Below the pieces are notes generated by a model. It did not search any database, was not told where the DNA came from, and was given only the letters and a program-made list of their open reading frames with translations. Positions 4,153-51,152 of a stretch of DNA of 64,000 nucleotides are shown here, in pieces; the stretch's first letter is position 1; every line of letters starts with the position of its first letter. The DNA is from a bacterium. GTDB taxonomy: Bacteria; Calditrichota; Calditrichia; RBG-13-44-9; J042. The DNA lies in NCBI GenBank assembly GCA_015485355.1, contig WFTQ01000076.1, positions 1 to 64,000 of the forward strand, in the 5' to 3' direction. Position numbers and translations under genes: made by a program.

Positions 4153-4860
4153 ATGAAGCACAACCGATCTCGTGCCCTGGCGGTGGTGCTGGTTAGTGGA
4201 GGATTGGACAGTTGCGTAACGGCGGCCATCGCGGCCCAGGAGTACGAGCTGGCCATGTTGCACGTCAATTACGGCCAGCGTACCGAAGCCCGGGAGCTAA
4301 AGGCGTTTCAGGATATTTGTGCCTTTTATGGGGTCCCTGCCTCCCGTCGACTGGTGAGCTCAATCGCTCATTTGAAGCAGATCGGGGGGTCTTCTTTAAC
4401 CGACCAACGGATACCGGTTTCCCGGGCTGATCTGCAATCGAAGGAGATCCCCACTTCTTACGTTCCGTTTCGCAATGCGCATTTATTGTCCATCGCTGTA
4501 AGCTGGGGCGAAGTGCTGGGCGCCCGCGCCATTTTCATCGGTGCGGTAGAAGAGGATTCATCCGGATATCCGGATTGCCGATTGTCCTTTTTCCAGGCCT
4601 TTAATCGCGTCATTCAACTGGGCACCCGTCCCGATACCCGATTAACCATCCAGGCACCCCTTATTCACCTGAAAAAGTTTGAAATTGTTCAAAAGGGAGT
4701 GGAATTGAAAGCCCCTTTGCATCTGACCTGGTCCTGTTACCAACGGGAAGACATCGCCTGTGGAATATGCGACAGTTGTGCGCTGCGGTTACGGGCCTTC
4801 CAGAAACTGGGACTGGAAGATCCCATCCCCTATCGGGAAAGACCCCGGTATTCCTATTGA
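4153..4860 (+). CDS. queC: 7-cyano-7-deazaguanine synthase QueC
   Basis: ATP-dependent conversion of 7-carboxy-7-deazaguanine to preQ0. The PP-loop motif SGGLDS is at residues 15-20 and the zinc site is formed by Cys195, Cys203, Cys206 and Cys209 (C-X7-CGICDSC). [13 protein letters not shown] and [13 protein letters not shown] are typical of the family. The start follows GAAGGGG by a few bases. It is the last gene of the que run and overlaps tail to tail by seven bases with the phosphatase gene on the other strand; no terminator was seen there. Confidence 0.95.
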
Positions 4861-48035: not shown

Positions 48036-49322
48036 CTACCGTCTTTCCAGTATGATCGCCCCTCCCTGTCCCCCTCCAATACACATCGAAGCGACTCCCA
48101 ATTCCAGATCCCGACGTTTCATCTCTTTTAATAACGTAAGAACCAATCGGGCCGCAGAGGATCCGACCGGATGTCCGAGCGCAATGGCACCGCCATTGAC
48201 GTTGAGCCGCTCTCGGTCCAGAGGTTCCAGAAGGGTTTGATCCCCGAAAGTCTGTTCCACAAAACGGCGATCGGCGAATAGCCGTTCGTTGGCGATCACC
48301 ACGGCGGCAAAGGCTTCGTTAATTTCCCATAGCTGCACGTCTCGGGACTTCAGGCCGGCCTTTTTCAAGGCCTTGGCAATGGCGTAGGTTGGGGCAATGC
48401 CCATATGTGAGGGGTCTACCCCGGCAAATGCATATCCCCGGATATAGCCCAATGGTTCCAATCCCATCGCCTTGGCCTTCTCTTCCGTCATCAAAATCAC
48501 GGCCGCCGCCCCATCGGTAATTTGGGAGGAGTTGCCAGCGGTGACGGAACCAAATTTCCGATCAAATACGGGTTTAAGCTTCGCCAGGGCTTCCATCGAC
48601 TGATTGTGACGGATTCCATTGTCTTCTTCTTGCAGGGTATCGAACCGGGGTGGAAGAGGAACGGGGACAATTTCTTCCCGAAAGAGGCCCAATTTGGTGG
48701 CCTGACTGGCCCGCTGATGACTCAGCAGCGCATAGGCATCCATTTCCTCGCGTGAAATCTGCAATTCCCTGGCCAGCAGTTCCGCCGTCTCTCCCATGAT
48801 CATTCCACAGAAGTAATCGGTTAACCCCAGTTGCAAACTATTGATGGGTTTTAGAAACCGAAGACGCCATCGGGGCAACAAGGCCAATTTTTCGCCCAGG
48901 GTCTTCGCCCGGTTGAAGCGCAGAAGCCAGTCCATAAAGGCCTTGGGGTAAAGCAAGGGGAAGTGGCTCATCGATTCGACGCCCCCCGCCAGTACAACTT
49001 GGGCATCGCCACAGGCAATTTCATAAAACGCTGAAATAATGGCCTGTAAACCGGAACCACAATTTCTTTGCACGGTAAAGGCGGGCACCTGTTCGGGAAT
49101 TCCCGATTTTAGAGCGATAATGCGGGCGATATTGATGGCCTCTACCGGCTGGCCAATATTGCCCCAGATCACCTCGTCAATCTCCCCCGGTGGGATTTCG
49201 GTGCGTTCCAGCAATTCCCGGGTTACTATCCGTCCCAGATCATAAGCGGGAATATCGTTGAACACGGTCCAGGCTCTGGTATAAGGGGTACGCAATCCTT
49301 CCACAATCGCAATCCGCGTCAT
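48036..49322 (-). CDS. fadI: Acetyl-CoA C-acyltransferase (thiolase)
   Basis: A 428-residue thiolase, close to the FadI length. The nucleophile is Cys88 in NCGSGLQAI; the other catalytic residues are His384 in GHPVGSSAAR and Cys414 in CIGGGQGGA, and NEAFA is also present (EINEAFAAV). It carries a long middle insert (about residues 140-230) typical of degradative thiolases. It precedes fadJ on the same strand, and GGGGAGG precedes its ATG. Confidence 0.94.
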   Translation of the reverse strand: MTRIAIVEGLRTPYTRAWTVFNDIPAYDLGRIVTRELLERTEIPPGEIDEVIWGNIGQPVEAINIARIIALKSGIPEQVPAFTVQRNCGSGLQAIISAFYEIACGDAQVVLAGGVESMSHFPLLYPKAFMDWLLRFNRAKTLGEKLALLPRWRLRFLKPINSLQLGLTDYFCGMIMGETAELLARELQISREEMDAYALLSHQRASQATKLGLFREEIVPVPLPPRFDTLQEEDNGIRHNQSMEALAKLKPVFDRKFGSVTAGNSSQITDGAAAVILMTEEKAKAMGLEPLGYIRGYAFAGVDPSHMGIAPTYAIAKALKKAGLKSRDVQLWEINEAFAAVVIANERLFADRRFVEQTFGDQTLLEPLDRERLNVNGGAIALGHPVGSSAARLVLTLLKEMKRRDLELGVASMCIGGGQGGAIILERR

Positions 49323-49590: not shown

Positions 49591-49713
49591 CTATTGTTGA
49601 GTATCCCCCGATGAAGGTTTATTACGCAAGAATTCCCTCATCTTTTTGCGCTGCCGTTTGATGTAGCGTTTTCTCCTTTTGCGCTTTTCCCTGGGGTTAT
49701 AGCGCTTGCCCAT
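49591..49713 (-). CDS. 40-residue very basic protein, mS38/bS22 (AURKAIP1/COX24)-like
   Basis: A 40-codon gene with ATG at 49713 and TAG at 49591-49593. Of the first 33 residues 19 are Lys or Arg, from MGKRYNPREKRKRRKRYIKR onwards, then the motif KKMREFLRN and a polar tail. A GGGAGGTG ribosome site lies three bases before the ATG. Small basic proteins of this pattern in other lineages (DUF1713/AURKAIP1-COX24 domain; bS22 in actinobacteria, mS38 in mitochondria) are ribosomal proteins at the decoding side of the small subunit. The assignment rests on composition and the KRRKR...RKKMR pattern only. It lies between the nucleotidase and thiolase genes, same strand. Confidence 0.65.
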   Translation of the reverse strand: MGKRYNPREKRKRRKRYIKRQRKKMREFLRNKPSSGDTQQ

Positions 49714-49773
49714 GGTCACCTCCCGCTTTATTGAATAAAATAACCATTGTCCCGGCAACAATCCAAATGAATT

Positions 49774-50340
49774 TCACCCCTCCGGATTCCGGCTGTTTAC
49801 CGCTTCCAGCACGAATTGATAAAACTCGTTCAACGAAGTCACCCGCGGTCCCGTCCAGTCCTGATTCCAGGGCTGATCCATACAGACGGCCAGCCGGCCG
49901 GTCGCCCGAAACGCCTCTAAGTTATCCACAAAATCATCCAGTAAAGCCAGGCCCTCCACGGCTTCTTTATGATAGCAGATGTGAATTTCATTGGTGGGGA
50001 CTTTAAATTTTCCCAGCCAGATAAATGTGGGATAGCGCCATCGACGGGGCTGCGCAGTTACAATGACATTTTCGAATCGGTGTTCCCAGCGCCTCATGGC
50101 CTCGATGGCGCCAGGATACGGTGGTGCCCCGGTCAAAATTTCTTCCAGGAACTGGCGATCGATGAAATCGTAAATGCGCTCGCCAATGGGGAAGAAGGCT
50201 TCCAGCCGCCGGGAACGCACCGTTTTGATCACATGATCGGGGAATTCTCGACGGTAAATCCGGGTCAAGCCGCCGATAAAATCTCGTATCACGCCATCCA
50301 GATCGACCAGCACCCGGATTTTTTGCGAGTTGTGGCTCAT
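49774..50340 (-). CDS. HAD-fold 5'-nucleotidase (NT5C)-like protein
   Basis: A 188-residue HAD-superfamily protein resembling the 5'(3')-deoxyribonucleotidase NT5C group. Motif I is DLDGVIRDF near residue 13 (nucleophile Asp and acid Asp two residues on), motif II is the Thr of VIVTAQ, and motif III/IV is the acidic LLDDFVDN. Segments such as PPYPGAIEAMRRW match the family. It probably dephosphorylates nucleotides. Its ATG overlaps the stop of the upstream reductase gene by four bases, and AAAGGAG lies in that gene's last codons. Confidence 0.85.
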   Translation of the reverse strand: MSHNSQKIRVLVDLDGVIRDFIGGLTRIYRREFPDHVIKTVRSRRLEAFFPIGERIYDFIDRQFLEEILTGAPPYPGAIEAMRRWEHRFENVIVTAQPRRWRYPTFIWLGKFKVPTNEIHICYHKEAVEGLALLDDFVDNLEAFRATGRLAVCMDQPWNQDWTGPRVTSLNEFYQFVLEAVNSRNPEG

Positions 50341-51152
50341 ACCTCTCCTTTATCCATCACCAACTCCCCGCCGTCGACCGGGATGACCCCTCCGTTGATC
50401 CATTGCGCTTCCGGACGCACCAGCAAAGAAATAACATTCGCCACATCCTCGGGAGTGGTGAGTCGTCCCCCGGCATTGCGTTGACGGGCCATCTCGATCA
50501 TTTTCTCATGACCGGGAATTTTCCGCAGCGCCGGCGTATCGGTAACACCCGCCATAATGGCATTCACCGTCACCCCTAAATGCCCCAGTTCCATACCCAG
50601 CTGTTTGACATGATTTTCGAGAGCCGCCTTGGCCGCGGATACCGCCCCGTAATGGGGAAATACCACCTTGCTCCCGCTGCTGGTCATGGCAAAAATACGG
50701 CTCCCCCGCCCCAACAACCCGGCCCAGTACAGTTCTTGAGTCCAGTACACCAGGGAATGGGCCATCACATCCATGGTCATCACCATGCTCGCCTTATTAA
50801 TCGCCTGGTTGGGGGCATCTGCAATGAAGGGTTTTAATGCACCAAACGCCAAACTATGGAGCATGACGTCGATATAGGCTCCGGCAGGGAGCTGCTTTTT
50901 AATCTCGGCCACCACCATCTGGCGTTTTTCATCATCCGCCGCATTCACATTAAAAAAAACCGCCCCCACCCCCTGGCTGCGAATCTGATCCATTACCGCT
51001 TCCACCTTCGGCATTGTGGCTTTCCGATCCAGATGCACCCCAAAAATATGGAAACCGTCCCGCGCCAGCCGAACGGCCGTGGCGGCTCCAAATCCACTGC
51101 TGCTTCCCAGAATTAATGCATATTTTACCCGTTCTGATTGATTGGTACCCAT
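50337..51152 (-). CDS. SDR-family reductase, FabL/FabI-like enoyl-ACP reductase
   Basis: A 271-residue short-chain dehydrogenase. The NADP-binding motif is LGSSSGFGAATAVRL, and MLHSLAFGALKPF matches enoyl-ACP reductases of the FabI/FabL group. The active site is SSGSKVVFPHYGAVSAAKAAL, with Tyr-X6-Lys and the Ser/Thr region before it; the closing NGGVIPVDGGELVM is usual for SDRs. FabL-type enoyl-ACP reduction in fatty acid synthesis is the likeliest reading; a general SDR role cannot be excluded. The nucleotidase gene is translationally coupled to it (four-base overlap). Confidence 0.8.
   Translation of the reverse strand: MGTNQSERVKYALILGSSSGFGAATAVRLARDGFHIFGVHLDRKATMPKVEAVMDQIRSQGVGAVFFNVNAADDEKRQMVVAEIKKQLPAGAYIDVMLHSLAFGALKPFIADAPNQAINKASMVMTMDVMAHSLVYWTQELYWAGLLGRGSRIFAMTSSGSKVVFPHYGAVSAAKAALENHVKQLGMELGHLGVTVNAIMAGVTDTPALRKIPGHEKMIEMARQRNAGGRLTTPEDVANVISLLVRPEAQWINGGVIPVDGGELVMDKGEV

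Follow-up and report, generated by a model that had tools for sequence, protein, structure and literature searches.

What does a very short and very basic reading frame in the genome of a member of the Calditrichota (G000) encode, and is its product the ribosomal protein bS22/mS38, whose features a preliminary description of the locus saw in it? The frame lies in a stretch of 64,000 nucleotides, the whole of which was analysed (hereafter the window), together with the following features:

49713 to 49591, minus strand: small basic-protein ORF, ATG to TAG (stop included), 40 aa, MGKRYNPREKRKRRKRYIKRQRKKMREFLRNKPSSGDTQQ; from sequence, conservation, selection and AlphaFold
49716 to 49723, minus strand: Shine-Dalgarno (SD) sequence GGAGGTGA, 2 nt 5' of the small-protein ATG; from sequence
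49774 to 50340, minus strand: NT5C-like HAD 5'-nucleotidase, upstream neighbour; Pfam PF06941, and the same neighbour in families f1 and f3 (synteny)
50337 to 51152, minus strand: SDR / enoyl-ACP-reductase-like protein, 5' of NT5C; Pfam, kept in f1 and f3 (synteny)
48036 to 49322, minus strand: FadI-like thiolase, downstream neighbour; Pfam and NCBIfam, kept in f1 and f2 (synteny)

The coordinates 49591-49713 and the 40-codon ATG-to-TAG frame of the preliminary description hold, and the coding strand is the minus strand, since a stop codon interrupts the plus strand over this interval. The strong ribosome site that it reported is present as the SD sequence listed above; the 19 Lys/Arg that it counted among the first 33 residues are in fact 18, and the computed pI of the protein is 11.8. 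As had also been proposed, this is not a shadow frame: the ORF is intergenic, lying between two genes of the same strand, 60 nt after the NT5C-like gene and 268 nt before the FadI-like thiolase gene, and it overlaps no longer gene. An Rfam search gave no match near the ORF, and a terminator scan around the gene returned 3 sites for 1.3 expected, which is non-discriminating.

The same-genus genome G001 carries an orthologue with 83% identity. The two copies differ in 28 codons, 21 of them synonymously and 7 non-synonymously; over codons 1-28, there are 15 synonymous and 2 non-synonymous differences and 0 changes at second positions. Over the downstream 200 bases, the alignment is gapped and shows no clear homology. 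An excess of synonymous differences of this size, next to a flank that does not align cleanly, goes beyond chance. The small ORF is a genuine gene under strong purifying selection. Its frame is conserved in relatives: orthologues without stops or frameshifts occur in 13/40 Calditrichota genomes (32-40 aa, ATG start, mostly with an SD; profile E 3e-15 to 1e-10), and no family member was detected in f5 and f6, two families of the same class. Within the order, the small gene has SDR and NT5C genes on its 5' side in f1 and f3, and in f1 and f2 it has thiolase and FadJ-like genes on its 3' side; the search for syntenic copies that had been recommended thus finds SDR/NT5C or thiolase neighbours kept across f1-f3. 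The gene is nonetheless a stand-alone one, with neighbours that vary between lineages and a place that is stable inside the order.

To identify bS22 itself, we aligned the sequences of solved bS22 proteins (PDB 7JIL, 9I5V, 8FMW) and searched the genomes with them. The source genome encodes a canonical bS22 elsewhere (G000:C103:28162-28248, E 6e-15, MPCGRKRKRHKMATHKRKKRLRKNRHKKKLR; L113 about 4163-4249; L066:1501-1587), and so do 38/40 of its relatives, including all 23 high-quality ones. Matches were also obtained in 27/30 carriers of the small protein from other lineages; 20 of these were read and are clear bS22 (e.g. MGSLKKRRKAKINKHKRSKRMRQNRHKKRLRYKS). The small-protein family and bS22 coexist in Calditrichota, in G519 and G536 and in almost all Verrucomicrobiota carriers tested. 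The bS22 on C103 is of the Bacteroidota/Borrelia type, while that of Verrucomicrobiota follows the pattern MG[SN]LKK...HKR.K...NRHKK; we found no bS22 paper that mentions Verrucomicrobia.

Comparison of the small-protein family with the bS22 alignment by hhalign gave a probability of 0.4-0.5%, i.e. no profile relationship, and the motif KRK..K..THKRKKR..NRHKK (in its shorter form THKRKK..NRHKK) is missing from the small protein. The consensus of bS22 reads MPxGKKRKRHKxATHKRKKRxRxNRHKKK, that of the small protein MGKQxNKxEKRxRRKxYxKR. The Pfam model PF08213 does not match the small protein, a result that is uninformative alone because it misses the bS22 of Flavobacterium as well. Pfam and NCBIfam models both fail on the latter. 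The two proteins do have much in common: about 30-40 aa, at least 45% Lys/Arg, a (predicted) helix, a stand-alone small gene that family models miss, and the same host lineages. However, since C103 of the source genome encodes a canonical bS22, and with a profile probability below 1%, we reject the identification of the small protein as the bS22/mS38 (AURKAIP1/COX24) of Calditrichota, which we regard as extremely improbable. The broader suggestion of the preliminary description, a ribosomal protein of this phylum, survives as a plausible candidate, but not as mS38/bS22.

To which family, then, does the small protein belong? When the Calditrichota alignment was run against 84,980 species genomes, 18 loci came out, belonging to KSB1, Lentisphaerae and Verrucomicrobia besides Calditrichota itself. 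In the Verrucomicrobiota-type phylum, 217/388 genomes have a single match (E 1e-3 or better), and 106 genomes from the rest of the domain added three further carriers, G519, G536 and G509 (cut-off E 1e-4). The family is present in 6/7 genomes of the phylum of G509, probably Dictyoglomota, and there is essentially one copy per carrier genome. A profile built from Calditrichota only recovers 25/25 outgroup loci tested (E 4e-11 to 3e-3), with almost every match beginning at model position 1 or 2. Composition alone is insufficient to produce such matches, because reversed and column-shuffled family profiles retrieved none from the same kind of DNA; a compositional artefact is ruled out by these controls. 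The core of the family, M[GS]KQxNKxEKRxRRKxYxKR, is position-specific, spans 22 residues and is non-repetitive; M1, K10 and R13 are invariant, R11 and R20 nearly so. The small protein is a genuine member of an undescribed orthologous family that spans Calditrichota, Verrucomicrobiota/Lentisphaerae and no fewer than three lineages besides.

Tiny basic proteins escape gene callers and family databases, and both bS22 and bL38 were missed until cryo-EM. The family reported here, real, conserved and previously unnamed, is another easily missed one, as had been foreseen: Pfam and NCBIfam gave no meaningful match to the core of its members. Genome comparison alone nevertheless reveals it as a conserved, nearly single-copy, multi-phylum family without a family model, and also shows bS22 in the phyla that host it.

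What could such a protein do? AlphaFold predicts a single helix over residues 7-30 (block pLDDT 97 and 94). With its size, its charge, a gene that stands alone in nearly one copy per genome and its conservation across whole clades, the small protein resembles the rRNA-packing proteins bS22, eL41 and bTHX. The pocket of bS22 (16S h2/h27/h44/h45) and the analogy with eL41/mS38 have been described (PMC10618245). Our leading hypothesis is a ribosomal role; RNA binding, a location on the ribosome and the function itself are what we infer from leads, namely the predicted helix, the coexistence with bS22, the lack of bTHX in tested carriers and a yacP/NYN adjacency discussed below. The conserved core would form one rigid Lys/Arg-rich helix, seated in an rRNA groove, where it would neutralise and lock rRNA helices. 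The protein would then be a constitutive accessory component of the ribosome, of the kind represented by bS22, eL41 and bTHX, and its site may be one left empty by the absence of bTHX. That it is a second, undescribed single-helix RNA-binding ribosomal protein, analogous and not homologous to bS22/eL41/bTHX, strikes us as an evenly balanced proposal. Slightly short of that balance, we would place the fuller version, an undescribed ribosomal family of Calditrichota, Verrucomicrobiota and other deep lineages that acts alongside bS22 and possibly compensates for the absence of bTHX. If the family is ribosomal, the ribosome parts list of the carrier phyla is incomplete.

Several observations speak against a ribosomal role. 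Searches of the PDB with one sequence and two profiles (the profile up to E 10) returned no relevant chain, no ribosomal-protein gene lies close to the small ORF in the window, and the family is not universal, as its non-detection in f5/f6 illustrates. Conservation within the family has no significant helical periodicity (p 0.7). Moreover, some Verrucomicrobiota members (L042, L043, L045, L047, L048, L055, L057 and L133) carry long, length-variable, Lys/Ala/Pro-rich C-terminal tails of the histone H1-like (Hc2/AlgP) type. These tails bring up the main rival, namely that the small protein belongs to the nucleoid or binds nucleic acids in general, either as an H1/Hc2-like condenser or as an RNA chaperone, with the conserved N-terminus as its binding helix. 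The KKAPAKKA repeats of the tails are weakly similar to H1/HC2. On the other hand, such repeats are absent from the window protein, and tails are missing in Calditrichota, in the probable Dictyoglomota and in many Verrucomicrobiota members; what is conserved is the position-specific core, which H1-like models miss, and comparable tails exist on ribosomal proteins, e.g. some L21 (a weak L21 model match). We consider this rival unlikely, albeit deserving of attention.

A possible link to translation comes from the neighbourhood of the gene in Verrucomicrobiota. At 10 loci (L042, L046-L048, L055-L057, L115, L124 and L129), the small gene is followed directly by a yacP/NYN-domain gene, and YacP/Rae1 of B. 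subtilis is a ribosome-dependent RNase. This adjacency, a weak link, would also suit a ribosome-associated factor that is not constitutive, involved in biogenesis, hibernation or mRNA decay, for instance as a partner of YacP/NYN. Yet it is absent in Calditrichota and in L141-L143, and within Verrucomicrobiota it may reflect mere shared ancestry; we hold a factor of this kind to be somewhat less likely than a nucleoid protein.

Returning to the candidate ribosomal protein, the site that it might occupy draws attention to bTHX, which was absent from 13/13 Calditrichota carriers and from 44/44 other carriers tested. Eight non-carrier f5 genomes have bTHX (G017, G024, G025, G028, G032, G033, G034 and G036; L171-L173). 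Within this class of Calditrichota, bTHX is restricted to f5, and none occurs in small-protein carriers. The exclusion is suggestive only, because it is a clade-level pattern (Fisher p 0.04, uncorrected) and bTHX is equally missing from the 36 Verrucomicrobiota where the search detected no family member. A pair of proteins never found together in the genomes tested, both tiny, basic, lineage-restricted and patchily distributed, with an MGK start, could be one and the same, the small protein being a divergent bTHX. We reject this identification, now highly improbable, as motif and predicted fold disagree: RGKI..G[ST]YG..RP, with its Gly-Thr/Ser-Tyr-Gly core, occurs in no family member, and a helix is predicted instead. 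PF17070 (bTHX) does not match the small protein in Pfam at E 10, and Thx chains are present in the PDB, where the family profile finds no chain at E 10.

A fragment of bS21 was rejected too. The basic helix recalls the C-terminal helix of bS21 (PF01165), but the small protein lacks the bS21 N-terminal domain and has no Pfam match to PF01165, and C91 of the source genome encodes a normal bS21. Within Calditrichota, one bS21 gene or none was detected in f1-f3, and many f5/f6 genomes carry two (e.g. G017:C1:1896679 and 3192531).
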